A DNA stretch of 64,000 nucleotides, taken from NCBI RefSeq assembly GCF_037126465.1, contig NC_088204.1, positions 21,830,804 to 21,894,803 on the forward strand, in the 5' to 3' direction. The translations under genes were made by a program, and so were the position numbers. The notes beneath the pieces were generated by a model that worked only from the letters and a program-made list of their open reading frames with translations, had not been told where the DNA came from and made no database searches. The first letter of the stretch is position 1. Every line of letters begins with the position of its first letter. Positions 3,832 to 63,380 of this stretch are shown in pieces. This stretch comes from Ornithodoros turicata (Eukaryota; Arthropoda; Arachnida; Ixodida; Argasidae).

Positions 3832-5049
3832 ATGGGTTCTGAAAATCACAAAAAACAAGATCGACCCCTGAAAAGGAGTCGCACCGAGGTCACGCTGAAA
3901 GTCGACAAGAAACACGCAGAACACTCACTATCAGAGCTCTCTTTCCCGAGGTTTCTGGTGGTACATTCAGCCGACGCTGAGAGGCCAATGAGCAGAATAT
4001 CTCCATTCGTGATTGCAAAAGACATCGAAAAGATTGTAGGAAAGGACTATTCAGCCAAAAAGCTTTTTTCTGGAGATCTACAAGTTGAGGTACAGACAAA
4101 GAAACAAAGTGACGCGTTGCAAGCCACCAAGCAGATTGCTGGAACGGACGTTTGTGTTACCCCACATCGTGTACTCAACACCGTGAAAGGTGTTATCTCA
4201 GATGATGATTTACTTACAAGCTCTGAAAACGAAATTTTAGAAGGTTTGTCTTCGCAAGGGGTCACCGCGGTACAGCGTATAAAAATCCGTAGGGAAGGCA
4301 AAGAAATCCTGACAAAACACATTATACTGTCGTTCTGTTTGCATTCTCTCCCACCTACAGTTAAAGCGGGGTACCTTAATTGCCAAGTACGTCCATACAT
4401 CCCAAATCCACGGCGATGCTTTAAATGCCAGCGCTTTGGGCATGGTTCCCAAACTTGTCGTGGCGAAGCAATCTGCCCAAAGTGCGCGGGAAAAGACCAT
4501 GTACCTGAATCTTGTACTAATGCAGTTAAATGCTTAAACTGCGCAGGCGATCACCCAGTTTTTTCAAGGTCATGCCCTCGATGGCAACAGGAGAAAGAAA
4601 TTCTAAAGATTAAAACAATACAAAACATATCGTATAAAGCGGCAAAATCACAGCTTGATTTCCAAAGAGTTGGATCCTTTGCGGAGGTGGTGCGAAAGGG
4701 AATGGCCCCACCCCCGGCGTGCGTTGAGACTCGGACACATTCTAAGCCGGAGTCCCAACCCAACATTCCCCAAAAGACTAGGCGGAGTACGCAGAGACTG
4801 CAGCCAGTCTCCGTAGCCTGCCAAACGGAGTCCAGTGAAGAAACCTCTTCGGAGGCTGTCGCCACCCCATCTTCTGGGGGGAAGTCAATGGTGACAGTAG
4901 AGGGAAGTCAACAACCCATGGAACTTTCGGATGCAGATGACCGTGCATCGCTGAAGTCAGTGTCGAGTACATCTAGCTTCCATGGCCGAACAGAGGCTTC
5001 AAAAGGGAAACGTTCAAAAGGCAGAGGAAGAGGCACGACAACAACTTAA
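3832..5049 (+). CDS. LINE ORF1, gag-like nucleic-acid-binding protein
   Basis: This 405-codon ORF starts at an ATG. Three CCHC-type zinc knuckles lie near residues 196-250: CFKCQRFGHGSQTC, CPKCAGKDHVPESC and CLNCAGDHPVFSRSC. An N-terminal basic region comes before a domain of roughly residues 40-190 that occupies the place of the RRM-like domain in other ORF1 proteins. The C terminus is low-complexity, rich in serine and threonine, and ends basic. Such proteins coat the LINE RNA and form the particle needed for target-primed reverse transcription. It is complete and directly upstream of ORF2 in the same orientation. Confidence 0.85.
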   Translation: MGSENHKKQDRPLKRSRTEVTLKVDKKHAEHSLSELSFPRFLVVHSADAERPMSRISPFVIAKDIEKIVGKDYSAKKLFSGDLQVEVQTKKQSDALQATKQIAGTDVCVTPHRVLNTVKGVISDDDLLTSSENEILEGLSSQGVTAVQRIKIRREGKEILTKHIILSFCLHSLPPTVKAGYLNCQVRPYIPNPRRCFKCQRFGHGSQTCRGEAICPKCAGKDHVPESCTNAVKCLNCAGDHPVFSRSCPRWQQEKEILKIKTIQNISYKAAKSQLDFQRVGSFAEVVRKGMAPPPACVETRTHSKPESQPNIPQKTRRSTQRLQPVSVACQTESSEETSSEAVATPSSGGKSMVTVEGSQQPMELSDADDRASLKSVSSTSSFHGRTEASKGKRSKGRGRGTTTT

Positions 5050-5118
5050 ATAAGTTGTTGAAATTTTAAATATAGCCTAACAAGATTACTTTGCCTTTAG
5101 AAAGGCACACTTCTAATA

Positions 5119-8100
5119 ATGAGTATTTCCATTACACAGTGGAATTGTCGAGGCTTACGGAGCAACTTGGATGACGTATATGCCATAACTGAAAGGTACA
5201 ATTCAGTGGCTATATGCCTACAAGAAACTTTTCTTCCCGGAAATAACATAAACCCATTCAAATACTTTAATCTTTTCTCTAAAGCGAGGACTAACACAGG
5301 GCGCCCCTCTGGAGGCGTGGCAATACTTACAAAGAAAAATTTACCAGCAAAAGAAATTCCTCTTGTCACAGGTTTTGAGGCAGTTGCAGTGCAGATCTGC
5401 ATCGATCAAGTTTTTACTCTATGCTCCTTGTACATCCCTCCAGATTTTGACTTTGATCCCCTGGAACTAGAGCGACTTCTGTTGCAACTCCCACAACCAT
5501 TTGTGGTTCTCGGTGATCTTAACGCACATAACCCCTTGTGGGGTAGCAACAGATATGACACACGTGGTAAACATATTGAAAATGTAATACATGCCCATTC
5601 TTTGTGCGTGCTGAACATGGGAGCACCTACTTATTATAATGCTTTACATCATACCTTCTCGTGTTTAGATGTATCGTTCTGCACTGCATCGATATTTCAA
5701 CTCTTTGAATGGTCAGTGAATGACCATCCTTATGGAAGCGATCATTTCCCGACAAACTTGAAGTATGTACAACATTGTAATTCTCTTTTAACGCGGCCGC
5801 AGAGGTGGAAACTGTCCCGCGCAGATTGGGAAGCTTTCCAAAAAATATGCGTATTGGGACCGTTATCCTCTGATATGACAGTCGACGAGGCGAATCAAAA
5901 CATTGTGGAGGCAATAATACACGCTGCTGGAAAAACTATTCCAAAAACAACAACCTCCCTACCTAAACGTCCTAAACCCTGGTGGACTGATGAATGTAAA
6001 AAGTCATTTAAGGAACAGAGGAAAGCTTGGGGAAAATTTCGTAAGTTCCCAACGCTGGAAAATCTTATAGATTTCAAGAGGAAGCGTGCTGCAGCGCGGC
6101 ACACTCAACGAAAAGCCAAAAGAAAATCTTGGCACGAATTTCTTACATCTCTTAATCGCAACACCCCATCTAAAGTTATATGGGATAGGCTAAACAAAAT
6201 CCGAGGTAGTTATCGAGGTTTTACGATGCCTATGATTCATGTGAATGGAGTACCTTGCGAGAACCTAGACGAACAAGCAGATGCCCTGGGTGAATATTTT
6301 CAAGAGATATCTAGTTCGTCACACTACAGTCCACGTTTTTTAAAATACAAGAGCAGAGAAGAAAATAAACGTATCGTCACTAGCACATTTGATACTGAAC
6401 CCTATAACACAGACTTCACGTTTGACGAATTTGAACAGGCTTTGTGCATTGCTAAGAAAACAGCCCCTGGGATGGACTCCATACACGTTGATATGATCAA
6501 ACACCTCTCAGTTGAGTCACAGGCTACACTTTTAAAATTTTTCAACCAGATATGGAGGGAAGGGAAGTTACCTTCTGGATGGAGAGAAGCAGTTATCGTA
6601 CCCATACTCAAACCTGGAAAGGAACCATCATTAGCTAGCAGTTACAGACCGATTGCACTGACCAGTTCGGTAGCAAAAATTATGGAACGTATGGTTAACA
6701 ACCGCTTAGTGTACGTATTAGAGGATAAGGGCGTTTTTAATAAATACCAATGCGGCTTCCGCGGGGGTCGGTCGACAATAGACCACCTAGTACGTCTGGA
6801 GACACAAATTCGGGAAGCGTTCGTACGAAACCAGTATTGCATCTCAGTATTCTTCGACTTGGAGAGAGCATATGATACTGTCTGGAGATATGGAATCCTA
6901 CGAGATCTTAGGTCATACGGAATCTGTGGACGTATGATCAGGTTCCTCGAAAGCTTTCTTCAAGATCGTACGTTCCTAATACGCCTGGGAACCACATACT
7001 CTCGACGCTTTATTCAAGAGAACGGAGTCCCGCAGGGATGTGTTTTAAGTGTCACGCTCTTTATAATGAAAATTAATTCTATATCTAAGGCTATACCTCA
7101 AAACATCCCATTTTCACTTTATGTGGATGACGTCCAACTGTCGTACAGCTCGGTTAACCTCCGCGGGGCGGAGAGACAATTGCAGAGTGCTATAAACAAA
7201 CTTTGCAACTGGGCGGACGAAAATGGCTTTCGTTTCTCGGCTGAGAAGTCTACATGTATGGTTTTTTCGCGCAAAAGGGGAATGCTCCTAAATCCGACCC
7301 TTAAGCTAAACAAGCGTGAACTCCCAATACGAACAGAGCACAGGTTTCTTGGTGTTACCTTCGACCATAAGCTGACATTCATACCACACATCAAACACAT
7401 CAAACAGAAATGTAATAGAGCTCTTAATATAATGAAGATAATATCACATAAATCATGGGGAGCGGACAAAGACACAATGGTGGAAATTTACAAATCCGCT
7501 GTACGTCCAATACTTGACTATGGAGCTGCAATTTATGGGTCAGCTAGACCATCAGCATTGAAAATTCTTGACCCCATACAAAACCAAGCTCTTCGCCTGG
7601 CGACGGGAGCATACCGTACCACTCCAGTGGAGAGTCTTTACGCAGAGTCAGGCGTTTGCAGCCTTAGAAGGCGAAGGCAATTCCTTTCTTTCATGTACGC
7701 TGCGAAAATAAGGAGTCAACCAGAAAACCCTGCACATGGATGCATTACTGAAACCCGATACAAAAGACTCTTCGCAAATAAACCAAGAGTAATTCCCCCA
7801 TTAAGTATGAGATTGGAACAAAATGCTCAACAGGTGAACTTCCTGGACTTCCAGAACCCCCTCTTTGGAGCAGTTGCCAGTACAGCTCCGTGGGAGAGAA
7901 AGAGGTTCTCATGTAACCTTGCACTAACTAAATATGATAAGAAAGCGGTCAATCCGCAGGTCATCAAACAAGAATTTCTTGCCATAAAGGACAGTTACGG
8001 GAAGCACGATGAATTTTATACTGATGGTGCAAAAGGCAAAACTGGAGTTGCGTGTGCTTTCGTTGCTAGTACATATAAGCGATTGACGAAATTAAATAAG

Positions 8101-8841
8101 CTCTGCAGCATTTTTACGGCAGAACTGTATGCGATTAACATGGCGTTAGACAGCATAAAGGAACACAGTGTTAAATCGCCTGTCATATATACGGACTCCT
8201 TGAGCTCACTTTTAGCTATAACGTCCACCAAGCAAACAAATAATTATTTGGTGAAGAATATCCAAAATAGTGTTCTAACACTTTCGATGATGGGACATGC
8301 GGTGAAATTTATGTGGGTTCCAAGTCACATAGGAATTAAAGGAAATGAACTTGCAGACCATGAGGCTGCACAGGCACTTTTGGGGAATATCACGGAACAA
8401 AGAATTCTGCTGCATGACTTCAAAAGAGCAGTGCAGAAAGCTCTGCATTGTGACTGGCAGCGAAACTGGAATGAACAAGTCAGAAACAAGCTGCACATGA
8501 TAAAGCCAACATTGTCATTGACAAATGTTTCTAACAGAATGGACCGCAGAAGAGAAGTGACCTTGTGCAGGCTGCGTGCAGGTCACACCTTTCTTACCCA
8601 TACATATCTTCTTAAAAGAGAGGACCCGCCTCGCTGCGAATTCTGTGATGACATCCTCACAGTACTTCATTTCTTGCTGATATGCCCTGTATATGAACGG
8701 CTACGACGAAAGCATTTTAAACAGATCTACGATATGCTCATTCCACTTCATCCTGCGCTCCTGATAGGAGATGAACCGCTTGTGGAGTTTGACTCTGTAC
8801 TAAACTTCCTTAAGGACATCAAGCTCCTCCAATACATCTGA
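5119..8841 (+). CDS. LINE ORF2: endonuclease, reverse transcriptase, RNase H
   Basis: This is a complete 1240-codon ORF starting at an ATG. Residues 1-230 form an APE-type endonuclease with QWNCRGLRSN, CLQETFL, VLGDLNAHNPLWG and GSDHFPT. The reverse transcriptase spans about 430-760, with SYRPIALTS near 508, GFRGGRSTIDH and a catalytic YVDD at 668-671 in place of the commoner YADD. RNase H follows, with YTDGAKGK near 968, TAELYAINMAL, YTDSLSS and WVPSHIGIKGNELAD near 1067. A CCHC-like cluster, CEFC...LHFLLIC, sits near 1173-1190. All active-site positions I can check are present. The enzyme nicks target DNA and copies the LINE RNA in place; the SINEs nearby may use similar machinery. Confidence 0.92.
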   Translation: MSISITQWNCRGLRSNLDDVYAITERYNSVAICLQETFLPGNNINPFKYFNLFSKARTNTGRPSGGVAILTKKNLPAKEIPLVTGFEAVAVQICIDQVFTLCSLYIPPDFDFDPLELERLLLQLPQPFVVLGDLNAHNPLWGSNRYDTRGKHIENVIHAHSLCVLNMGAPTYYNALHHTFSCLDVSFCTASIFQLFEWSVNDHPYGSDHFPTNLKYVQHCNSLLTRPQRWKLSRADWEAFQKICVLGPLSSDMTVDEANQNIVEAIIHAAGKTIPKTTTSLPKRPKPWWTDECKKSFKEQRKAWGKFRKFPTLENLIDFKRKRAAARHTQRKAKRKSWHEFLTSLNRNTPSKVIWDRLNKIRGSYRGFTMPMIHVNGVPCENLDEQADALGEYFQEISSSSHYSPRFLKYKSREENKRIVTSTFDTEPYNTDFTFDEFEQALCIAKKTAPGMDSIHVDMIKHLSVESQATLLKFFNQIWREGKLPSGWREAVIVPILKPGKEPSLASSYRPIALTSSVAKIMERMVNNRLVYVLEDKGVFNKYQCGFRGGRSTIDHLVRLETQIREAFVRNQYCISVFFDLERAYDTVWRYGILRDLRSYGICGRMIRFLESFLQDRTFLIRLGTTYSRRFIQENGVPQGCVLSVTLFIMKINSISKAIPQNIPFSLYVDDVQLSYSSVNLRGAERQLQSAINKLCNWADENGFRFSAEKSTCMVFSRKRGMLLNPTLKLNKRELPIRTEHRFLGVTFDHKLTFIPHIKHIKQKCNRALNIMKIISHKSWGADKDTMVEIYKSAVRPILDYGAAIYGSARPSALKILDPIQNQALRLATGAYRTTPVESLYAESGVCSLRRRRQFLSFMYAAKIRSQPENPAHGCITETRYKRLFANKPRVIPPLSMRLEQNAQQVNFLDFQNPLFGAVASTAPWERKRFSCNLALTKYDKKAVNPQVIKQEFLAIKDSYGKHDEFYTDGAKGKTGVACAFVASTYKRLTKLNKLCSIFTAELYAINMALDSIKEHSVKSPVIYTDSLSSLLAITSTKQTNNYLVKNIQNSVLTLSMMGHAVKFMWVPSHIGIKGNELADHEAAQALLGNITEQRILLHDFKRAVQKALHCDWQRNWNEQVRNKLHMIKPTLSLTNVSNRMDRRREVTLCRLRAGHTFLTHTYLLKREDPPRCEFCDDILTVLHFLLICPVYERLRRKHFKQIYDMLIPLHPALLIGDEPLVEFDSVLNFLKDIKLLQYI

Positions 8842-23413: not shown

Positions 23414-24016
23414 CACTCTAAGAAAAAAAGGAGTAGTTTTAATCCACTGGGGACTAAATGCATTGCCGCAAGATATAGGTCTTTTCGGGAGTAAATGAAT
23501 GTCACAGAGTGGAGACTACATTTCACGCTCTGTTCTAAGAGTCCCAGGTACATATGATTCGTGTCTATGCATGAAACCGTCAACCGTGATATATCGAGTG
23601 CTATAAAATCTTGCAACATGCATTTTTGCCTACATTTGGGCACGATTTTGCACTTGGGCACCACCGCGGTGAAACACCCCATCTCATCGTCATCATTTAT
23701 TGTTGTTGTTTTGCATTTGGGCACAATTTGCGAAGAAAGAAGCGCTATCTGTTCCTTACTCTGTATGGGTAGAAAATTGCTACATTGGCTGAGTCATGCA
23801 GCCTCATGCCATCAAATGGACCAAGAGCACATATTTACGTAGACTGTTACGTTCGGAAGACCATTTGCGAAGTTCAGTGACTATATGTGCAGTCCTGGGG
23901 AGCAAATGTCGGGGTTATGGGGTCGAGAATAGGAAGTAATTGCAGTCTAAGGGACTAGAAGCTGCAATTGCTCTCCACTTTGCTCTTTTTTGTGTGTGTG
24001 TGTGTCTTAGAGTGCA
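23412..24016. mobile_element. Non-autonomous CACTA-like element, 601 bp
   Basis: The element is 23,414-24,014. It starts CACTCTAAGAAAAAAAGGAG and ends TGTGTGTCTTAGAGTG. The first 21 bases differ at one position from the left end of the 52,122-62,858 transposon. A 2-bp CA flanks both ends, as TA does for the large element. It encodes no transposase and would need one supplied in trans. Confidence 0.8.
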
Positions 24017-33737: not shown

Positions 33738-34260
33738 ATGGGGTAGATTCACACGGCGGACCGACCCCAGGAATCGATCCACGGACTGCGTAAACGGCAG
33801 AGCTTACGTCATGGAAAGTGCGCACTGCGGTCCGCGAGGGACCAGATCAGGGAGCGCGGACCGTTCGCCTCCGCCATACAAACGATCCGCGCGGGCTGAG
33901 CATAAGAGCTCTGCGCCCGGGTACGTATATACCTGTCGGTCGCGTGACGTCACTAGGGTCTCGAGGCTTTCTTCCTGCTCCGGTCCCTCATGTGAACCCC
34001 TGAGGAACGCGCCCTTGGTTCCTCGCGTGTACGATGCCGTCATCCGCTGTTTCTGGGTGCACGTGTGCGGTGGTGCGTTCGCCAGAGGCTTACTGTGGGC
34101 TCACACGAAAGACCGGAGCAGGGAGAACTCCTCACGACCCGAGTGACGTCACGCGGCCCGACAACTCCACGCGCGGACCGATTGTATGGCGAGGCGAACA
34201 GTCCGGGCTCCCTGACCTGGTCCCTCGCAGGCCGGAGTGCGCACATTTCCATGATGCCAC
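33738..34260. mobile_element. Two MITE copies in inverted orientation forming a long hairpin
   Basis: Copy 1 spans about 33,738-34,003 and begins GGGGTAGATTCACACGGCGG. Copy 2 (about 34,085-34,258) is an inverted partial copy. Blocks such as GTGCGCACT, AGGGACCAG, GTTCGCCT, CGTGACGTCACT and CTGCTCCGGTC appear in both, in opposite order and strand. A third copy lies at 35,607-35,921. Confidence 0.75.
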
Positions 34261-49936: not shown

Positions 49937-50850
49937 CAGAGTTCGAGGTAACTCGTTACAAGTAACTCGTTACTGTAACCGAGTTCCTTTTTTCGGTAAC
50001 TTGTAACTTAACTCGGTACTTTTGCACCGTGGTAACTTTCAGAGGAACTCGTTCCTTTTTCAGGTAACTTTGCCAACGTAACTTAAGTTACGTTCCAAGT
50101 TACTTTTAACTCGCTTTTCACTCGCGTCCACATATTTTCTTGTTGTCTCTCCGATTCCTTCGTGGCATTTTTTCCCATAAAACGTGATATTCAATCAATG
50201 ACAGTATTTTATTCAGGAAGTAAGAACCGCTGCCATTGAAATGAAGCTGACCCATTGTGCGCCCACAGGGAGTAAGATGCAAAGCGTTCGAATAGATCTC
50301 TACCAGAGAAACGTCATCATCACATTGGTAGACAGACTGAAACCGAAACAAATCGGAAGGAGAGGGCTGGGTTCCACGAACGGGCACTTGTTCGCTGCCA
50401 CTGAAAGAAAAGCAGGGCAGAGGGTCGCGTCCCTTTAATGGACCATATCGTAATCCCCTCAAGACGTGGCTTTCGGGCGCAACCCTGTTCACCTCTAGCT
50501 GCGAGTGTACTTCAATTCTAACAAATTTGTCGCGCTGTCGAACACAATGACGTCATTTGTTTACAAACAGGGAGAGGTCTATTGTTGGACATATACGAAA
50601 ACGATCTAAGCGTGTTGCACTCCTCCGCAGGCAACTCAAGGTCTAACTCAGCTGCTCACGCGCGCTGCGCCTGCGTAATGCTATTTTGTGTCCGAAGTAA
50701 CTTGGAAGTAACTCGTTCTTTTTTTCTAAGTAACTCAGTAACTGCGAGTTACATTTCAAGCTGAAGAACTTCGTTATTAACTTAGTTACATTTTGCACAC
50801 GGTAACTTAACTTGTAACGAGTTCCTTTTGACGGGTAACTTCTCAATCTA
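49937..50850. mobile_element. hAT-type element with GTAACTCGTTAC-rich ends, right end decayed
   Basis: It begins CAGAGTTCGAGGTAACTCG, close to the start of the element at 58,186. GTAAC and AGTTAC motifs fill 49,945-50,110 and, inverted, 50,695-50,850. The right terminal CTCTG and a target duplication were not found. Confidence 0.6.
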
Positions 50851-51203: not shown

Positions 51204-51686
51204 ATGGGGTTCTTTTCGCGGATTTTTCGTCGTCAACCGGTCCACCCGAGCGTTTTGCTCGCGATTCTCGAGGCCATAGCGTGGAATCTGGAGAGAGGTG
51301 CACCGGATGTGTTTCCGGAGATCCGGAAAAATTTGCGCAGCTTTTCCAGATCCGAGGGCTGCATTGAAGAGCATGTAGCCCTTCTGACTGCTCACGTCGG
51401 AAGCCGTATCCCGGGCATCAGTGAAGGCTGCCTTGACATCATCGCAAAAATCCTACGCAGCTACTCCAAAAAACTCGGCTACATGGACATAGCAAGGATA
51501 GCTCGTTGTCTTCTGCTGTGTGACCCTCTCAACGAAGACATCGGGAAGAAGGTACGTGGCCTGGTCGCAGACATCTTTCTCAGGCACCGGATGGCTGCCG
51601 TTGACTACACCCGCGGCTTATTGTTCAAGGTAGACGACGTCACGGCTGCACGAATCAGAGCGCTCACGGGCATCTACATGAGCTAG
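51204..51686 (+). CDS. Uncharacterised intronless ORF, 160 codons
   Basis: The frame starts at an ATG and ends TAG. I do not recognise the product. It begins MGFFSRIFRRQP, a short basic stretch with a glycine at position 2. Most of the rest is predicted by eye to be helical, for example LLAILEAIAWNLERG and DIIAKILRSYSKKLGY. No signal peptide, membrane segment, zinc or catalytic motif is visible. The ORF is more GC-rich than its AT-rich surroundings and is uninterrupted, which suggests either a real single-exon gene, a retrocopy or an integrated foreign sequence. Chance is less likely at this length but not excluded. Confidence 0.5.
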   Translation: MGFFSRIFRRQPVHPSVLLAILEAIAWNLERGAPDVFPEIRKNLRSFSRSEGCIEEHVALLTAHVGSRIPGISEGCLDIIAKILRSYSKKLGYMDIARIARCLLLCDPLNEDIGKKVRGLVADIFLRHRMAAVDYTRGLLFKVDDVTAARIRALTGIYMS

Positions 51687-52022: not shown

Positions 52023-52574
52023 CCAAAGAAAAGCAATTACTGCTAAAGAAGCATATGATGACAAAATGGGTACGACCAGACACTGGTCGCACAGCAAGTC
52101 TTCGGCAGCCTCCACACTGTACACTCTGAGAAAAAAAGGAGTCGAACCGGAGTTTTAAGTAGTTTTATGCCCCCTACTGCATACAAACTCCCAGTTAACA
52201 CCCTTGCAACCCCTACCCCATATGCAATTTTCTGTTTTACTCTTTGTTTACTCCCACAACTCACATTTTACTCCCCAGACGGAATAACGCATATGTGAAT
52301 TCTATGATTTAACCGATGGAAGACTTAGAGTAATGCTCTCTGGGCCCTCGAGGTGTATGGAAATAAATAAATAAAAACTTAGTCAATTGATTTGATTAAT
52401 TAAGAAATTACTTTTATGCCCTGTCGTTTAACCCGATATGTTGCAAGATATTATCAGGGACGGATTTTGGTGTTGTTTCATTTTTTTTTATAAAAGCTGT
52501 AATGCCTGAATGCACTATAACCTCTTGGTCGCACAAAGAGAGAAAGAAAATATATGTATATGAAAAGCTCTTGC

Positions 52575-52580
52575 TTTATT
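52575..52580 (-). promoter_or_regulatory. Candidate polyadenylation signal of the Tnp2-like gene
   Basis: AATAAA on the minus strand, about 290 bases after the stop codon and inside the transposon end. Confidence 0.5.
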
Positions 52581-52870
52581 TGTAGTAGGACACCATGTAT
52601 AGCAAACTACATATTATATGTGAGAAACTTGCAATACATGTATACAAATACAGCATGACAATATCAAATTGCAAAAACAATCAAACATGTGTTTATAAAC
52701 GTAATCAATTAGCGTAGGATTTTTCCACAGTTGAAGAAATTTAGAAGGTCTCTTGACTGCTACAGGAAAGCAAAAAGAACATGTCAGTCATGTTTGGCTA
52801 TATATCAGCAGGGTCCCTTGGTTCTTTTTTTCAACCACATAGCATGTTACTCTGATCACGCCTCCATGTA

Positions 52871-55384
52871 CTACCCGGTTCCACTAGCAGGATCCTCTTC
52901 ATACAGCTCGAAGTGTGGAATCACCTCATATCTATCCTGGTGTTTATATAAGTCTAATGCACTGTATTCTGGATGCTGCCCTGGAGATAGCAGTGTGTGC
53001 ACACCTGAACGCCTTACCTCATAACTATGCCTATGTTCATTGAACTGAAGTGTGTCAAGCAATTCAACGAATAACAATAGCGTTCCTCTGTGAATAATCA
53101 TTACAGACAGCTGTGCAAAAACTGGAGCTTCTTCTTTCCAGCTTGCACAGTACACATCTTCAACTTGGTAGGTGTTAGCATCGACACTTGCAGATCGGAC
53201 ACTGTAGAGTATTTCATTCTCGGAAACACCTGCAGGGAACACAGACTTTACTGCATCTGGAAGTTCCGACCACAGTACGCTCTTCCCTGTACTCGTAGAA
53301 AGAGGCTTTGAAAAGCGAGTTGCCGAGAAGTGATAGCATTGTTGCAGCTGTCCCCTGGTTGACATCGTCTTGCAAATATTCACGAAGGATTTGGACTTCA
53401 TAGCAATGTTCTTGAAATACGAGTGCTTTGCCTCAAATCGCATGCTCCAGTACCTTCTTGGTGGCCCATACAAGTACATAAAGCGGGGATAGTGGACAAG
53501 GAAATGCATTTTTGGGATTAACTTCTGGTTTGGAAACACATCAGCAAACTTTTGAAGAAAAACATCTACTTTCACTTGCAAGTATTGAATGCAGTCTGCT
53601 GGAACCTTGTCTGCCAGAATAATGTCCACAATGTGCCTGTATAGCAGGTATACTTCCCATGCTGGATGTCCTTCAGGTACCAAGTGGCTGATCATCTGAG
53701 GCAAGAGACGAAAAATACACCACTTCTGGCTTGCGGTTCCTTTGATGTGGCTATTTGATCTAAGGAAAGAATCTGGCAGGGGAACGGGCTTAGATTTCTT
53801 ATCATTAATCCCATATTTAAATGTGGATATCACCTTCAGACTTGACGCACTGATTAAACCTGAATCTGCCAGTGACATCAACACATGTTTTAGAACAAAA
53901 GCAATGCCACCTTCAAGAATGTCATGCATTGCGTCCGGTAGCAGCTGCTGTGTGACATCAAAATCAGGAATGTGCAGCAAAGGCGACCTGGCGACAACTC
54001 CATAAAGCCTGGATTTGGTGTGGTCAGCCTCAACAGCAGCAATATGGTCTTCATGCACAGAAGCCGTACGTATTTGACAGTTGTGTTCACTAGTCACCTT
54101 GTTTATGTACTTTGAGTCTGTCACACAAAACCTGCAAAAGTGGCCACTACCAAATGAGCTGCTGAAGCCACCAATGCGATTAAGTGACAGGTTGTCACCG
54201 ACAATACCCAATAGGCATATCTTGACTACTCTTGTCCGTCCGTCAACTGTGATTTGTAGTCCATGCTGGTGCAGATGTGAGATTTCCTTGATCAGTGGAT
54301 CAAGCACCTTTTCGATTCCAAGAGATTTTACATGAGCGTACTTCACCAACATGACCTGATGAATAGCGTTTAGTCGTGACCTGTATTTGGGGTGTAAATT
54401 AATCACAGAAAAGTATGCAGCAAGAATCTTGTGTGTGCCTGCGGCAGACCCTAATGGATTAACAAGTTCCAACTCGTCTGTGTACAAAAGAAGCACTATA
54501 GTTTCAGCATCACTGTTGCGGAGAATGGCCCTCTGCCTTGCATAATCACCATCCAGAATATCAGAGAGGACACCCGAGTTACTTGGCTCACAGTTTGCGC
54601 CCAGTATGTTCTCAACTGCATCATCTGCAGAAAGCATATTGATCAAGACTTTGCCTATGGGCATATAATATAACAAGCGGCAGGGAGTGACGGATTCATC
54701 CAGACGAATCTCCTGAGGTTCTGTGTATGGCAGTGATTCTTTAACATACTTCATGAAGATGTAGTCGCTCTTTATAGTTGTCCACAGCACATCTAACACA
54801 TCACTCGAGAGAAACGTCAAGAGTTTCTCGTACGCGTCCTGTGGCGTGTTCTGTTCGGCAACAGTTTTCAAGTGACGCTGAAAAAAGTCAAACAGCAACT
54901 GGACGAAAACTTGAAAGTCCCCGAAGATGCTACTTACAACGGTGCGCGGCAATCGGTACTCCTCTCGTGTCTTCAAGAATAGCATGGCGAGATGTTTCTT
55001 CATCACGTTCAAGAATGACACTGGGTCTGAAATATTCTCCTCACTTTGCTCTTGGGGATTTTGTTCCCGGGCTTCCGACTCCCTGCTGGACGAGGGCTGT
55101 GTATGCGGGCTCTGCACGGGATCCTGTTCGATACTTTCCATGCTGTCATCTGCGCCTTGATTCGTGTTACTGCTGTCATTTTGTCCGTGTGCTCTTCCAT
55201 GCATCGGGTGGTCGCGTTTCACATGTTTCATCAGCCCTCTGTAGGTGTGAAATGTTCGAGCACACCCATGAAGACCGCATGTGACGGCGAATCCAGGTTC
55301 GTGAGCATGAGCGTATCCTATGTGGCGTAGCACGTATGCGTAATCGGGCGCAAAGTACGGACAGCTAGAGCAATAGTAGGCCAT
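52871..55384 (-). CDS. Tnp2-type (EnSpm/CACTA) transposase with N-terminal C2H2 fingers
   Basis: This is an intronless 837-codon ORF from ATG to TAG. Residues 1-65 hold two C2H2-type fingers (CSSC...HIGYAH and CGLHGC...HVKRDH). An acidic, disordered linker follows to about 115. The catalytic body shows the Tnp2 pattern: YTDELE near 302, VGDNLSLNRIGGF near 396 followed by FCRFC, LPDAMHDILEG near 475, and MRFEAKHSYFKN near 650. The acidic residues at about 302, 396 and 651 could be the D-D-E metal ligands. Plant Tnp2 has the matching GDxPAxRKVxGF...C-x2-C and F-E positions. It would cut and rejoin the CACT...AGTG ends. The fingers probably bind end or subterminal DNA. No break is present. It is transcribed away from the second gene. 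Confidence 0.85.
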   Translation of the reverse strand: MAYYCSSCPYFAPDYAYVLRHIGYAHAHEPGFAVTCGLHGCARTFHTYRGLMKHVKRDHPMHGRAHGQNDSSNTNQGADDSMESIEQDPVQSPHTQPSSSRESEAREQNPQEQSEENISDPVSFLNVMKKHLAMLFLKTREEYRLPRTVVSSIFGDFQVFVQLLFDFFQRHLKTVAEQNTPQDAYEKLLTFLSSDVLDVLWTTIKSDYIFMKYVKESLPYTEPQEIRLDESVTPCRLLYYMPIGKVLINMLSADDAVENILGANCEPSNSGVLSDILDGDYARQRAILRNSDAETIVLLLYTDELELVNPLGSAAGTHKILAAYFSVINLHPKYRSRLNAIHQVMLVKYAHVKSLGIEKVLDPLIKEISHLHQHGLQITVDGRTRVVKICLLGIVGDNLSLNRIGGFSSSFGSGHFCRFCVTDSKYINKVTSEHNCQIRTASVHEDHIAAVEADHTKSRLYGVVARSPLLHIPDFDVTQQLLPDAMHDILEGGIAFVLKHVLMSLADSGLISASSLKVISTFKYGINDKKSKPVPLPDSFLRSNSHIKGTASQKWCIFRLLPQMISHLVPEGHPAWEVYLLYRHIVDIILADKVPADCIQYLQVKVDVFLQKFADVFPNQKLIPKMHFLVHYPRFMYLYGPPRRYWSMRFEAKHSYFKNIAMKSKSFVNICKTMSTRGQLQQCYHFSATRFSKPLSTSTGKSVLWSELPDAVKSVFPAGVSENEILYSVRSASVDANTYQVEDVYCASWKEEAPVFAQLSVMIIHRGTLLLFVELLDTLQFNEHRHSYEVRRSGVHTLLSPGQHPEYSALDLYKHQDRYEVIPHFELYEEDPASGTG

Positions 55385-55831
55385 CCTTGCAAAGTTTCAA
55401 GCACAGTTGCACAACATTTACATCAAAACTGCGGCTCGATACATTGCGACGTACACACGACAACAGCTGCAGCAAGCGGCAAGCTCGTATTGGCTCCTGG
55501 CTTCGGCTACGGCAAAGCTCACAACTAAGACCGCCAAGACAACGTTGCAAAAGCAGCAAAGATCAAAGAGCAACTAACCATAGTATGTATAGCCTTCAAA
55601 AACGTGCGTATCGATAAACAAAAAACTTGATGCGAAGGAAGAATGAAGACCGGCTCCGAATCCGTCTAAATCTGAAATCCAATTCAAGCCAATCACAAGT
55701 TTTTGTCTGTTGCCGCCAATTCACCGGTCGTTCGTTGCGTTCGTTGGTTTTCGCGTGTCGAACCTTCCAAATTACACTGCTGTTCTCGCGTATGATAAGT
55801 ACAATTAGCTCATTCCTTGGCGACCTCAACT
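55385..55831. promoter_or_regulatory. Shared divergent promoter region of the two transposon genes
   Basis: Only 447 bases separate the two ATGs, which face away from each other. No clear TATA box was found. The region carries short ORFs without motif. Confidence 0.5.
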
Positions 55832-58800
55832 ATGGGAACCGTGGAGTGCCTTTTTATGTACAAGGAGCATAAGAAAATAATACGTGTTGGCGGAGATCGG
55901 CGTATCAACGATGTCCGGGACGCCTTTCTGAGGTCGGAACTGGGAAGTGCTGTACCGCCGGGTTCATCACTAATTATACAGGTGGGTTCGTACATTTGTG
56001 ATTACGTCTGGTTTATGTCACCCATTCTTTCGAGCATTGAAAGTTCAGGACAACGAAAGACTACCCATAACTACAAATGTTTGCTCACGTGTAGATATCC
56101 TTCTTTGCGACTTTGCGAAAACGCAGCATAAAAGTTCATCGCTATTCTACTTCTTACAGCTCTACAGCAAGAAATTTTCAGAGTATGTTGACATGGAAGA
56201 CAGCGACCTTATAGAGGACCTCGACAAACTTAATGTCGTTCTGAAAGTTAGCTCACACGAGGAGGCAGGGGGCTCATCCGAGGCACTTCATGTTGTCACG
56301 TGAGCACAGTAAAGCATGCAGCAACTCTGACAATGGCTGAACTAGCCAGCTGCCTGCCTAGACTCTCGAGAGAAGTGCATGATTTTGAACATGAGCGCTG
56401 CGCGGGGTCTCAATCATTATTTGTGACTGTGCGCGATCTGTGACGTGCCTTGCACTGGCACTCAATACCCCCATATGTCCCACCTTTTTGTACAGGGAGC
56501 AAACTGTTGCACAAGCTTCTGGACCGTACAGGCTTCCTGAACCTACGTACGATGTCCTTCAGTGTATTAAAGATGTGCAGCAGACAAACATCACCCCTGA
56601 CCTTCGCAACAGACTTGTTAAATGGCTCCATGCCGACATTTTACGATATGACCTGTAAGTTCCTACTTTTGCAAGACTGTGCAACGTTTGCTGCAGTTGT
56701 GGGTGCAAATTAGCCAGTACATTGCATGTGCTAACTTTCATTTGCATATCAACATTTTTATTTTTGTTTTTTTAACATAGATACCCAGGTCGCAAGAATC
56801 TCTACTACGAAGCTGCCCGCCAGCTAGTGTTTGCATACCCAGTGCTAAAAGATGCGGCAGGAAGTGGCTTTGTGAGCTGAATGTTCAAATGTTTCACTGT
56901 TTCATAGCACTCAGAAATTGCTGGCAATTAGTCTTATTCATGGTTATGTTCATTCTCTTTCCTGGAGCTAGCAGTTCGGCTCCCATGCTGGTGTTAATGT
57001 GTGCTGTGTGCGATGTAATCTCAATATATTAAAATCAGCCAACATGGCTTTGAAATGCAGGACTCATGGCAACGGGCCTTAAGATTCCGCACAAAAAACC
57101 AAAGAAAAAAACCATCAGATGTGCCAGCAGTCCAAGAGCAACGAGAAAGATTCCAGCTGCATAAAAGGAGGGCGGTGCCTGAGTGCAGCCAAACCAAGAG
57201 GAGATGCTTTCATACTGTGGTGTGTTCACAATAGTAGCCAGAAAAGTGCGACACATATCTTTGTACATTTGGGGGGGGTGTAATTATCCATGTACATTAA
57301 TGCTATTGCAGAATGCACAAACTTTTGTGGAACAGTCAAGTGATGATGACAAATTCCCTGAGAGACGAGCATGGTTGCAAAATGATGCACCAGCTGTGCA
57401 GGAGGTGGTGCAACGGTATCCAACACTAGGAACTGCCACTGGGGTTGGTATTTGTTGCTGTTAATATTCCTTTGTCTGTACTTCAAAGATGAGTTGAACA
57501 GAGTTTTGATTGTGTCATGACGAATTGTTTCAGGTTCATGACGAGTTCATGCGGCTCACTGGGAAAGATCCAGAAAAAGAGTTTCTCGAATTTATTAACA
57601 CAAAGGGAGAACGCATTATGAAGCTCGCGAGACAGAAAAAGAGCACAGCGAGGGTGATGTCACTTATAAATGACAAGCTCAGTCAGTCATCAAGTCTGGA
57701 TACACAGAAATGTAAGTCCAAGGCACATAGACAATTTCTGCAATGTGTCATGTAGTACTGTCGTTTGTGTGGAAAAAGGATAAATTAGGCCATAACATTT
57801 ACAGCATACCGAGGGACTAGGGTCGTTGGTACTGAACATTCATACTGTATGTGCAATTACGACACAGACGCAAATTGACAGACCAGCACGTGCTTCCAAC
57901 GTAGTTTATAATTCCAAACATTCGCATATCCTGAATACACATATATGCAAACAAACAACGCCCCTATGATCTACCAGCGGCTGCTCTGGTTGTGGTGAGC
58001 TCTTTATCTCTAAGCGCAACCAAATTGTGGCTTACGCGTCCGCTCATCACTCTGATAAACGTGGCCTCGACTACCTCCCTTTCAATCCCATTATCAGCCT
58101 TGTATACAACCTTTGTATGTTCTTACATTTGCCTGCACCCCCGTCAGTGGGTACGTTCTTTTTAGTTAGCCAGGTCATTACCAAGCAGAGTTGTACGTAA
58201 CTCGTTACCCAGTAACCAGTTACTTTTTTCGGTAGCGAAGTAATGACCTAGTTACTTTTCTAAAAATTGTAACTAATAACGTATTCAGTTACAAAAATCA
58301 GTAACTCGTTACTCACGTTACTCGTTCCTTTCCTACGTTTACACTCGGCTTCAACATGGACTACATCGGCAATTACTATGTGGAAATTCCTGAAATCTCG
58401 TACACTTCTAACACGAGGTGACCTGACGTGGATGTTCAGCTCCTCGGAGCCTCTGGTCGACAGTCATTCTTTTGTGGAGTCCTAAAGCGGCCTGCATGAC
58501 GAATGCCGAAACAGTTCCCGGTCGTGTCATTGACCATGAAATCATTCTTGGAAAAATACCCTGGTTTTGTTCGTGTGTGTGTGTGTGTGTGTTATCTCCC
58601 AGCAGCTGCCAATGGAGATACTAGAGTAACTAAGCTCGCCGAAACTCGGATCCGGAGATAGCATTGTCATTCTCTGCTGATTCCCCGTGCTGTTGTAAAG
58701 TTGACCCACCCGACCTGGACCACGAGATCTCAGGCTTATTATATGCAGCTCGCGCATGTCATTGGCCTAGCAGCGTATCCCGGGAAGAAACCTTAGTCCC

Positions 58801-61800
58801 TGTATTTTCTCTTCCACCTCCACACTTGTGGACTCCAGTGAGGATCACTCATTGGATTATAAGATGGCACAGATGATAATCACGTGAGCGTGGCCTGGGT
58901 TGTACGAGACGTTCAGGGTGAAGGTGGCAAAAGGTGACGGGAATATAGTATTTTAGTGTCTTCTTTGCCTTCCCAAACTAAAATGACCGAATATTCGCAT
59001 TCGAATCTGGAGAAGTGTGCTCGGGTAAGCGCCTTCAATATTTTAGTTAGCTATAGCAGTTACCGTATCGAGGGATTATACGTTAAAGGCACTGCTTTTC
59101 ACGAATCAATCGAATACCACCTGGGGCCAATGACGTGTTGTGAGGAGGCAGCTCAAGAACCCTGACTGATCTGATGGTTTACAATGGAGGGGGGGATCAT
59201 GTTTATTAAAAGAAAGGAAAAGTTAGCCATGCAAACAGCCAGCTTATACACCGGCTTGTAGTCGTTGGTGTAGACATTGGTGTAGCGTTTATCAGTTCAA
59301 ATAAATGCACAGTATTGCACTGACGTCGTGTAGCCTCCTAACAGTGGTGCCAAAATAAGGGAATAAAAGCAGCTGTTGACCTTGAATTCACAGAACAAAA
59401 AAAAGAAATAAAATCAGCCTTGTTACTGATCAGGCACATCCAATACATGCATCAAACAAAGGTGGCCGTATCTGATGCAGCCATGCCTTTCTACAGTAAT
59501 TTTTCAGTCTTGCCACAGAGACTCTCTTGAGCAAACGCACCAAAAATAACCAATGCCCATGTCGAGTACCAACTATTCTTGAAAACGAATTCCATGGAAA
59601 TTGTCGGACCAAATAAAGCACGTGTCAATTTTGATGTTGACATTGGTGTGGCTCTGTGACAGAGTGGTAACGTAAAAGTTACTTGTTACTATCGAGTAAC
59701 GGGAACGCGTTCCTTTTGCTGCTTTGGTAACGTATTTAGTTCCTTTCTTTTTCGTGGTAACGAGTAACGGTATTTAGTTCCTTTTTTTTTCGGTAACGTG
59801 TACAAGTCTGTTACCAAGCAATGACCTTCTATGCTCGTTTAACATATTGTTAATACATCGGCCAATTTGGCCGATGTAAGACTGCCCGAGGACAGTGTAA
59901 ATTTATACACCACACCGCTGGCACATGTGGTGTATTTGCTAACATTCTGTCTAGAACACACTGCTCGCTCTACGGGGATCATTAATCATGCCCATGAGAG
60001 AAGTCAGTCTACCGGCTGTGATCACCAAATGTGAACCCCGTGCCCATTAATTAATTGAATTATATTTTTTATTGTTTTGCATGTGGTCTTACATCGGCCA
60101 AACCAGCTGATGTAACAATAGGTTAAAAGAGCATAGAAGGTCATTTCTCGGTAATGTCCCGGTTACCATGAAAGAACATAGCGGCAGACGTTGGTGAAGT
60201 CAATGGTAGAAGATACCAAGGTTGTATACATTGGCTGGTAATGGGATTGGAAGGCAGATAGTTGAGGGCGCACTTATCAGAACGACAAGCATATGCATCA
60301 GTAATGAGGTGGTTGCGCTCACAGATAATGCATTAATATGAATCTAGACAGCTGCTGGTAGACCATAGGGGGTGTTGTTTGTTTGTATATTCAGGACATG
60401 TGAATGTTTGGGGGTACTGTACGTATTGGAAGTGCTGGATTTTGTCCTTTTCCGTCTATGTCTTACTTGCACATACAGTATGAGCATTTACAAAGCGGTA
60501 TGTCCAGGGGGCAGGGCAACAGACAGGGACAGTATTTGATGCTCTTCCTTTGTGTTACACCCCTGCACTTTCACATATTTAAATTTCAACCAACATGCTC
60601 ATCCTCTAGCATTCAGTTGGCCAGCATGTACCACATACGACTGCTTGCATTCTGATTGCCTGTTTCTATGTTGCAGATTGCTACTCAGTGGGAGTTGTCC
60701 ATGCCATCGCACATCTATTGAAAGAAAGTGCAAGTGATATCTTTACCATGGTAAGCAGTCATATTTTGGAATGCGTGCGTTAGTTAGAAATGCTAATACA
60801 CGTGGCTATATCACGTAGATCAATGAAATCAAATCACTCTCTTACCACTGTAAGTTATTAGTTGTGCCCTTACTGCCATGGCTTTCTATCTATACTTCAG
60901 TGGGTTACCAAGTGTAGGTGGCAAGTTTTCCGCCATTAGACGGTTGAAAGCGCGACAAGTTAGTATCGCCTGGCTGGGTTGTCTCTGTGCCCTTTTTTTT
61001 TCTTTTTTGTAGTGTTGCGGTTGCCAACAAGTCAGTCAACTTGTATCCTGGTTAAACCTATTTTCTTGTGCAATATGCCTTGCTTTGAGGATATGCACAC
61101 TGAGGATGGACACAATGCATGTGTAGCCAATCATTAGGGGAAATAGACTTCTCCTCTGTCACCAGAGGTTTAAAAAGATAGGTGGCAGTCCACAAGTCAG
61201 TGGAGTGGGCTTGTTAAACAAAATGTTTCTACAAGCTACGTGCTCTAACTTTTTCCCTTCTCTTGATAATGTGCTGGAGCTATAGGTTCTTTACACACGG
61301 AATCTATTAATGAGTGTTATCATGTGTACAACAGTGAAAGCCGAGATACGGAAGAAAACTGTCGTAATTATGTACCAGCTCGCCCTTGCCCTTCTGCTGT
61401 TATCATATGTGTTTTGTTCTTCATTTGACCGACCCTCAGAAAATTGAAAAAGCTGCCTGTTTCACATCTTGAGTTAGGCTGTGTTAGATTTGTTGCGCTT
61501 CCTGGTTTTGCATTACATCCACACTAGAATTGAAGTCTGTGCAAAAATAACACACATCGTACTAATCTGCTCTCTCTCTCTCACTTCTCTGCACCAATTT
61601 CATTTAGGAGGACACAGCTGTGTATCCAACAATTGTGACACAGGATCCTTTCAAGTTCCAGCCATGTCGAGTTGCTGTGGAAGGGTGCACTTATGAGGCG
61701 GTTGACACCATAGCAGCCATATGCATCATATTTGAACTTTACTGGGTTTTTAATTTAAAGTATGCTCCGTTACTTACAAGAACACTGAGCCTTTTTGAAC

Positions 61801-61889
61801 ACTACCTTGGACTCGGCAGCAGTAAAAAAAACGGCATTCTTGTGTCACGAGTAATCTCTGACCTCGCCGCACTAGAGGCTAAGCATTAG
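55832..61889 (+). CDS. SAMD3-like second protein of the CACTA-like transposon, nine exons
   Basis: Exons: 55832-55981, 56160-56299, 56496-56654, 56781-56871, 57061-57216, 57312-57443, 57534-57711, 60677-60750, 61608-61889. Every junction has GT and AG, and phases agree throughout, giving 453 residues. The exon 5 donor could also lie three bases later. Exons 3-5 hold a basic helical domain (LVKWLHADILRYDLYPGRKN, then SWQRALRFRTKNQRKK) that I associate with vertebrate SAMD3-like proteins found beside similar transposases. The last exons hold VVHAIAHLLKESASDIF and FELYWVFNLKYAPLL, also typical of that group. Residues 1-90 (exons 1-2) may form a ubiquitin-like or PB1-like fold, by length only. 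A helper role in DNA binding, like TnpA of plant CACTA elements, is inference. The exon model is secure; the function is not. Confidence 0.78.
58178..59818. mobile_element. hAT element, 1625 bp, with perfect 8-bp target duplication, nested in a PLE
   Basis: The element is 58,186-59,810, starting CAGAGTTGTACGTAACTCG and ending TAACGTGTACAAGTCTG. TTACCAAG is repeated exactly at 58,178-58,185 and 59,811-59,818. GTAAC-rich subterminal stretches lie at both ends, and a (GT)n run at 58,573-58,592. No transposase ORF is present. It is younger than the PLE it interrupts. Confidence 0.9.
59856..59880. repeat. Palindrome with 10-bp arms at the PLE GIY-YIG core
   Basis: TACATCGGCC...GGCCGATGTA lets both strands read YIGQ. 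It is a by-product of the YIGQ...GRC coding sequence. Confidence 0.6.
60083..60425 (+). mobile_element. Penelope-like element fragment with GIY-YIG domain, head-to-head partner
   Basis: It encodes YIGQT, a stop in place of the GR position, then CNNRLKEHRRSFLGN. The match to the left copy continues to about 60,425 (CATAGGGGG, AACAAACAAC and CATGTGAATGTTTGG blocks). About 200 unpaired bases (59,886-60,082) lie between the two heads. Confidence 0.75.
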
Positions 61890-62400
61890 AGTCAGAGAAT
61901 TACTACAGCGGTAGTCTGCGAGAGCCATTGATAGAAACTAATGCAGACAGAAAGACCACAGAGCTTTTTGATGTCATTTATGTTTGTTGAAAGCTTCTGT
62001 GTTTGGAGTTCTCAAGCTCTAGTCAAGTGTGTTTAAGCTTTAGTGTGTAAACACCAGGGAAGGTCACTGGGTGGTTACTAGTCAGGTTAAATATTCTTTA
62101 TTTTATTGGTAAAGTGTGCAATCTACATGTAATGTCTTAACTAACTTTGGCACAAGCTGTTGCATGATGTATTAAGTCTTTGGTCCCACTATAATTCAAG
62201 CTGAGTACTCTAGATTATTTCTTTTTCCACTACGCTATTTTTTAAATGTAGTTTCCTGAGAACGCCCAATTTTACTAAGCTCCCCCTTCGGTCTGTTTAA
62301 GATAGCAGTCAGCTGCTGCAGTAAGTTCATAGAACAGTGGATAACTGTTATACTTTGTACTGTTTTGTTTTCTCATCTTATAAATTTGTAATCGAGTTAT

Positions 62401-62406
62401 AATAAA
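62401..62406 (+). promoter_or_regulatory. Candidate polyadenylation signal of the SAMD3-like gene
   Basis: AATAAA lies about 510 bases after the stop codon and is followed by a GT-rich stretch. It is inside the transposon end. Confidence 0.5.
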
Positions 62407-62454
62407 TGTATTTCACTTGAAATTGCTGTGGTCAAGAATTTTGTTGCATGGATA

Positions 62455-62835
62455 TGGAGGTGGAACCAGAAAACTGGAGTAATTTGTACTCCATTGCTGG
62501 AGTAATAATACTCCCTAAATGGGCTTACATTAACTCCCAAATAGCATTAAATTTACCTTATATGTGGGGTTACACTTACACCTCATGGTGGAGTAAATGC
62601 AGGAGTTTTGTTAGAGTAACATTAACTCCCTTAAGGAGGTGTACGTTTTACTCTGTTAGAGTAATATTAACTCCCTTAGTGAGGTGTAAGTTTTACTCTC
62701 TGTTAGAGTAACATTAACTCTCTGAGGGGGTTTAAGTTTTTACTCCCTGATCCCTGGAGTTCTTGTTACTCCTGAAAAGGGGTGTTATTTTGCACCCCGG
62801 AGTTAAGCCATTTTACCCCCACAAAGGCATTGGCA
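62455..62835. repeat. Right subterminal region with GGAGT/ACTCC motifs and a threefold repeat
   Basis: Three tandem copies of about 46 bases start GTTAGAGTAA at 62,610, 62,655 and 62,702, each continuing with ATTAACTC and TTTTACTC. More GGAGT and ACTCC motifs fill the rest. Subterminal arrays of this kind are transposase-binding sites in plant CACTA elements. Confidence 0.75.
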
Positions 62836-63380
62836 CGACTCCTTTTTTTTTCAGAGTGTACTGGAGTCGGATCCCTGATCAAACCAGGCAAATATTGTCC
62901 GCTCTACAATGTCTTCGCCACATGTCTCAAATATTCCAGGACTAGCAATCCCGTTTTTACGGAGGAGTAAAATATGGTGCACATCGTTCGCACAACCTTC
63001 AGAATACAGACCCAGCTCTAGAGGAGTAGCTGACGAGAGAACGGCAAAGAACTACCACTGAAGAAAGCTGTGGTTACGATATGGATACGATGCAACACTG
63101 TTCGCGCAACATATCTCCGGCAGCTTCGACACTGATCTGGCGTCAAATCGGGGTACCAGAGTTGATATCGCACGCACTATACAGTGCCTTCGTCACACGT
63201 TTCAGATGTTGCAGGGCTAGCACTCAAGTTTTCACGAACGAGGTACGTACGGTAGTCACGTACGGACGAGGAAAGTAAACACAACATTTGCACCAGCTTC
63301 ACAAAACAGAGCCAGCCGTAGAGGAGCACCAGAGCTAGAAACCAGGCTTCAAGCATACAAATGCCACTTCAGCACGTCAT

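Follow-up and report, generated by a model that had tools for sequence, protein, structure and literature searches.

Does an animal genome here hold a complete CACTA-like transposon that carries two divergent genes of its own? The question is raised by a 10,737-bp unit at 52122-62858 of the window (by which we mean the whole 64,000-nucleotide stretch of Ornithodoros turicata contig NC_088204.1 that was analysed), for which an initial annotation had proposed near-identical CACT...AGTG ends, a 2-bp TA duplication, an unbroken Tnp2-type transposase, a second gene inside the same ends and a recent or active state. We consider the unit likely to be a CACTA/EnSpm-type DNA transposon, structurally complete and EnSpm-like in its cut-and-paste mechanism, with a second protein that may act as a transposition helper. 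Support for a mobile element of CACTA-like type carrying two divergent genes comes from the ends, the flank duplication, an interrupted host repeat, a short relative that shares the left end, a subterminal motif cluster and the motifs of the transposase. A complete copy with two intact genes would offer a concrete test of whether animals too need a second protein and of whether independent recruitment explains that protein, in which no TnpA domain was detected; should it prove active, the element could also serve as a transposition tool. Our impression of the literature is that far less work has been done on CACTA-like elements of animals than on those of plants.

Ends, insertion site and a short relative

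Inverted ends bound the unit, reading CACTCTGAGAAAAAAAGGAGTCG from 52122 and CACTCTGAAAAAAAAAGGAGTCG in reverse from 62858, and agree with each other at 22 of 23 bases, the terminal sequence being CACTCTGARAAAAAAAGGAGTCG; once the flanking GTA/TAC is included, the arms extend to 26 nt at 96%. The features on which the limits depend are as follows.

52122..52144, + strand: left terminal inverted repeat, CACTCTGA... (inverted-repeat and end-pair comparison)
62836..62858, - strand: right terminal inverted repeat (inverted-repeat and end-pair comparison)
52120..52121, unstranded: left TA flank, presumed target-site duplication (read as a direct duplication in the light of the CA...CA that borders the 601-bp relative)
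62859..62860, unstranded: right TA flank (flank comparison)
63046..63242, + strand: uninterrupted paralogous copy of the host repeat, with the insertion point corresponding to about 63135-63136
23414..24014, + strand: 601-bp relative, too short for either gene, with 10-bp perfect inverted ends and CA flanks
52122..52521, unstranded: left subterminal region, 5 motifs in 400 bp
62459..62858, unstranded: right subterminal region, 14 motifs in 400 bp, including a 45-bp unit three times

The window was scanned for CACT/AGTG pairs with a spacing of 150-15,000 bases and flanks agreeing over 2 or 3 bp, each pair being scored over 20 bases. Three pairs reached at least 15/20 (19, 17 and 15), and the 52122/62858 pair ranked first with 19/20, compared to a best pair with a 2-bp flank match of 13-15/20 in 20 first-order simulated windows; the near-identity of the ends claimed at the outset is thus borne out. 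CAC..GTG ends are consistent with EnSpm (PMC12730594).

TA flanks the element on either side. Because TA is its own reverse complement, in this copy alone it could belong to the ends or be a duplication, and any single 2-bp flank match has a chance of about 1 in 16. Of the proposed 2-bp duplication, the presence of TA on both sides accordingly stands, while the duplication itself leans on the CA...CA of the 601-bp relative, where CA on both sides forms a true direct repeat. Taken together, the two insertions (two only) display the 2-3 bp target-site duplication of CACTA/EnSpm elements, for which a length of 2 bp is given in PMC1636069 and 3 bp in PMC12730594. The left end of the relative matches that of the large element at 20/21 bases (0/100 shuffles), and its right end merges into a CA microsatellite, making the right limit less secure. 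A window self-comparison at E values up to 1e-3, too coarse for end-length matches, returned no further similarity between the two.

The left flank (from 52030) and the right flank (from 62861) are two halves of one host repeat, scoring 54 and 52 against the whole repeat unit compared to 27 and 25 for the best of 300 shuffles each. When joined, the flanks align across the insertion point to the whole copy with an E value of 1e-14 and 138 of 202 positions identical. The host repeat is broken at the insertion point, so the whole unit went in as one block. At 62861-63326 lie host-repeat units with 68-79% similarity at an offset of about 276-300 bp, which the tandem-repeat program missed. Directly left of the insertion lies a 160-aa open frame (51204-51686) with no Pfam match at E up to 0.001.

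Inside both ends, short repeats of the kind seen beneath CACTA/EnSpm termini are present. The motif ACTCC/GGAGT, picked by eye from the element ends, occurs 14 times in the right 400 bp, 5 times in the left 400 bp, 10 times in the intervening 9,937 bp and 91 times in window positions 1-52121 (35, 12.5, 1.0 and 1.75 per kb, respectively). Of the 14 densest 400-bp windows listed (50-bp steps), ranks 1-12 lie over the right end and ranks 13 and 14 over the left. The 45-bp unit in three copies (62609-62749) contributes to the right cluster. These patterns bear on the possibility that two unrelated genes lie by chance between separate end sequences, without any single element. Such a grouping would fit the weakness of the tnp2 match described below and the fact that no second full-length copy was seen, but it is opposed by an end match of 19/20 with a flank match as well, by a host repeat interrupted on either side of the unit and by a motif cluster inside both ends, and we judge it highly improbable.

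The divergent gene pair and the age of the copy

Between the ends lie two genes that point away from each other, and the second of them carries nested insertions in an intron.

52871..55384, - strand: transposase, 837 aa, single open frame (open reading frame translation; finger patterns and candidate residues)
52575..52580, - strand: AATAAA hexamer downstream of the transposase gene and within the element, identified by consensus alone
55385..55831, unstranded: 447-bp spacer between the two start codons, presumed divergent promoter (from distance only)
55832..61889, + strand: gene 2, nine exons, 454 aa (exons 55832-55981, 56160-56299, 56496-56654, 56781-56871, 57061-57219, 57312-57443, 57534-57711, 60677-60750, 61608-61889)
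62401..62406, + strand: AATAAA hexamer downstream of gene 2 and within the element, likewise identified by consensus alone
57840..60483, unstranded: nested fold-back within gene 2 intron 7, with loosely defined outer limits; its arms (57840-58185 and 60147-60483) show about 72% complementarity
58191..59805, unstranded: second element nested in the fold-back, delimited by eye, with TTGTACGTAACTCGTTACC / GGTAACGTGTACAA as its ends

The transposase frame is unbroken, without a stop over its full length, as initially described. As to its designation as Tnp2-type, PF02992 (Transposase_21, tnp2) weakly matched residues 291-438 in a Pfam search with an E value of 5.5e-4 and a score of 19.6 bits, below the curated cut-off of 28.6, and PF13960 (DUF4218) weakly matched residues 591-666 (E 0.048, 13.9 bits versus a cut-off of 27). 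Candidate residues are D303, D397, C417-x2-C420, H487, H627-x3-H631 and E651, chosen by eye and positioned by script. D303, D397 and C417-x2-C420 fall within the PF02992 stretch, and H627-x3-H631 and E651 within the DUF4218 stretch. The combination of C(2)C and H(3-4)H between the second D and the E is described for EnSpm, Mirage, Chapaev and Transib (PMC12730594); the transposase carries a candidate DDE set with both pairs before the E, a feature common to the whole CMCT clade, and this order and residue content, as in those enzymes, strengthens the weak Pfam matches. Furthermore, two N-terminal C2H2-type patterns (residues 5-26 and 36-59) occurred in 0/3000 shuffles. We regard the prediction of a DDE-type enzyme of an EnSpm-like element as good, not certain, and place the element as a whole in the superfamily with the same reserve because the tnp2 match lies below its curated cut-off.

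Structure prediction of the transposase without relatives was useless (predicted local distance difference test, pLDDT, 35.6), and a PDB sequence search returned one row (E 0.62) that was taken as chance. Viral contigs contained no match to the transposase or to its E-motif pattern, in a scan that reaches close relatives only and may omit records near the window's genome. Five bacterial or archaeal loci carried the E-motif pattern; the best tblastn match to the transposase among them, with an E value of 0.41 over 35 residues, was likewise set down to chance. NCBIfam yielded three rows for the two proteins, all below cut-off (E 4.9e-4, 0.038 and 0.031) and taken as spurious; the last of these was the single, spurious-looking row for the gene 2 protein.

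A second, spliceable gene inside the same ends was also recovered, in a model with eight introns, all GT...AG, that is open from ATG to stop. Splice sites were picked by eye to hold the frame, a choice that accounts in part for the stop-free reading but not for the codon scores. Scored with transposase codon preferences versus an intron background, the predicted frame reached +67 bits and the other frames -57 and -132; exon by exon, the predicted frame ranked first of the three in all but exon 5 of the nine, where it came second by 0.009 bits per codon. Gene 2 appears to belong to the element: both its start and a hexamer resembling a polyadenylation signal lie between these ends. An alternative is a CACTA-like transposon whose transposase is its only own gene, gene 2 being a captured host gene or fragment: CACTA elements often capture host fragments (PMC8195511), and gene 2 is modelled with eight introns whereas the transposase frame needs none. 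Captured pieces, however, are described as fragments, whereas gene 2 is open from ATG to stop in one frame; it also starts 447 bp from the transposase start and is followed by AATAAA within the element, and we consider capture unlikely.

With E values up to 10 allowed, although the program's filters remove most matches above about 0.1, Pfam listed no family for the gene 2 protein and hence no TnpA-type domain (PF03004); a PDB sequence search with it was likewise empty. An Rfam search returned no match. One stretch of the viral contigs matched the gene 2 pattern and encodes no relative (scan reaching close relatives only), and a bacterial-type promoter scan of the intergenic spacer is uninformative for an animal. 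The protein may resemble proteins annotated as 'SAMD3-like' that recur as repeats in fish and cnidarian genomes; such a kinship would make it a transposon protein and would speak against capture.

Intron 7 (57712-60676) holds about 2.6 kb of nested, diverged insertions, and without the fold-back insertion the element would measure about 8.1 kb. The proposal that the element is recent or active found no support: the frames are intact, but the intron carries a fold-back with arms about 72% alike and an inner element, and short matching ends say little on age (an age estimate from the terminal repeats was rejected for the same shortness). The copy either stayed in place long enough to gain these insertions or moved carrying them, while the intact frames argue against great age. 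That both frames survive despite the insertions could also suggest a former transposon domesticated as a host gene pair and no longer mobile. The ends, the flank repeat and the subterminal motifs, which domesticated genes would not need, are nevertheless still intact, and domestication seems to us quite improbable. The nested element at 58191-59805 has GTAACTCGTTAC-type ends, with a related stretch at 49962-49998 (87% over 39 columns), and an imperfect inverted repeat lies inside the fold-back at 59811-60154 (arms of 42 nt at 90% and 29 nt at 86%).

Proposed mechanism and its weighing

For an EnSpm-like transposon with two components, we propose that the transposase would recognise the transposon ends through its N-terminal finger region, whose finger patterns probably bind the transposon, would cut at CACT...AGTG and would join the element to a new site with a 2-bp stagger and duplication. 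TnpA, the regulatory protein of plant CACTA elements, binds their subterminal repeats (PMC8195511). The gene 2 product, transcribed in the opposite direction from the shared 447-bp start region, would coat the subterminal ACTCC/GGAGT motifs and assist in uniting the ends, the task that falls to TnpA in plants, though it is unrelated to TnpA. By this analogy, we tentatively suggest that the gene 2 protein is a helper that binds the subterminal motifs. Catalysis and DNA binding by either protein are predictions from sequence, cutting and joining being expected from the family.

Several observations weigh against this reading. The element ends start CACTC, not CACTA, so that CACT agrees with the EnSpm end (CAC, classically CACTA) while the fifth base differs. 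The second window pair (33823-34239) also exceeds the simulated 13-15 with its 17/20, which implies that the simulation understates the frequency of real repeats, and alignments to the empty site with 0, 1 or 2 copies of TA score 87, 88 and 88, leaving the TA count undecided. The tnp2 score falls short of its cut-off, and an evidently spurious bacterial NCBIfam family scores nearly as many bits on the transposase (19.2, E 4.9e-4). The residue patterns were set after the protein was seen; the loose D-D-CxxC-HxxxH-E pattern arises in 137/3000 shuffles, and in 9/3000 when MH (486-487) is required. Pfam zf-C2H2 matches the transposase at E 3 only, and residues 1-62 are predicted as helices (pLDDT 52.8, without relatives), so that zinc fingers are neither supported nor excluded. 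For gene 2, the sole pointer to DNA binding is a basic stretch of net +11 over 45 residues from residue 185. Lastly, the boxes of the animal TRC transposases (D-G and W-P in box I, and [LVI]-D-x-[LM]-H-x3-L-G as box A; PMC1636069), compared by eye, are partly matched only, with TDELEL replacing D-G and PDAMHDILEG standing at box A.

Elsewhere in the window, the 417-bp stretch at 33823-34239 has inverted ends CACTSCGGYCYGCGAGGGAC alike at 17/20 and flanks that continue as inverted repeats, and is probably another short inverted-repeat element. A retrotransposon resembling a long interspersed nuclear element (LINE) at 3832-8841 has two unbroken frames. One, of 405 aa, looks zinc-knuckle-like by eye but drew no Pfam match at E values up to 0.001; the other, of 1240 aa, combines an endonuclease, a reverse transcriptase and an RNase H domain. 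No long A run occurs in the 312 bases downstream. The frame at 29060-31384 matches AKAP2_C (E 2.4e-18), which suggests an animal and no more.

Comparison with known two-protein elements

Animal Harbinger and ISL2EU are two-gene cut-and-paste elements with a second protein, and differ from the window element in transposase superfamily and ends. Plant CACTA elements duplicate 3 bp, versus 2 bp here. Among the titles and abstract openings that a literature search listed, from a library without Repbase reports and most subscription papers, none announced a divergent two-gene animal CACTA element or tied SAMD3-like proteins to one.

Among animal elements, SmTRC1 and its TRC relatives (DeMarco et al. 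2006, PMC1636069) resemble the window element in having a Transposase_21-type enzyme with CxxC near the second D, 2-bp direct repeats (in 7/14 SmTRC1 copies) and a further protein beside the transposase, and a 9.2-kb TRC element is reported in Aedes. The three reported TRC ends begin CCC, however, whereas the window element ends in CACT, and the SmTRC1 proteins PrA and PrB are alternative splicing products whereas the second gene here is separate and divergent; the CCC ends and complete boxes of the SmTRC1-like family are thus not found in the window element. CMCT-clade enzymes share with it C(2)C and H(3-4)H between the second D and E, CA...TG ends and 2-5 bp duplications (PMC12730594). In the same source ESTA elements duplicate TA, and the CA flanks of the 601-bp relative argue against ESTA.

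Plant CACTA (En/Spm) elements are like the window element in their CACT...AGTG ends, subterminal short repeats, two proteins and short relatives without genes (PMC8195511, PMC1636069). They differ in ending CACTA rather than CACTC, in encoding TnpA and TnpD as overlapping splice forms rather than divergent genes, and in the PF03004 domain, which found no match here. The plant two-protein comparison offered by the initial annotation is thus fair as an analogy, but does not extend to the protein itself, which has no TnpA domain and comes from a separate divergent gene, not a splice form. It is conceivable, though we put it forward as a conjecture that could well prove wrong, that the window element represents an animal EnSpm branch with two components, in which a zinc-finger DDE transposase is joined by a divergent, unrelated partner that replaces TnpA as the binder of the subterminal repeats.

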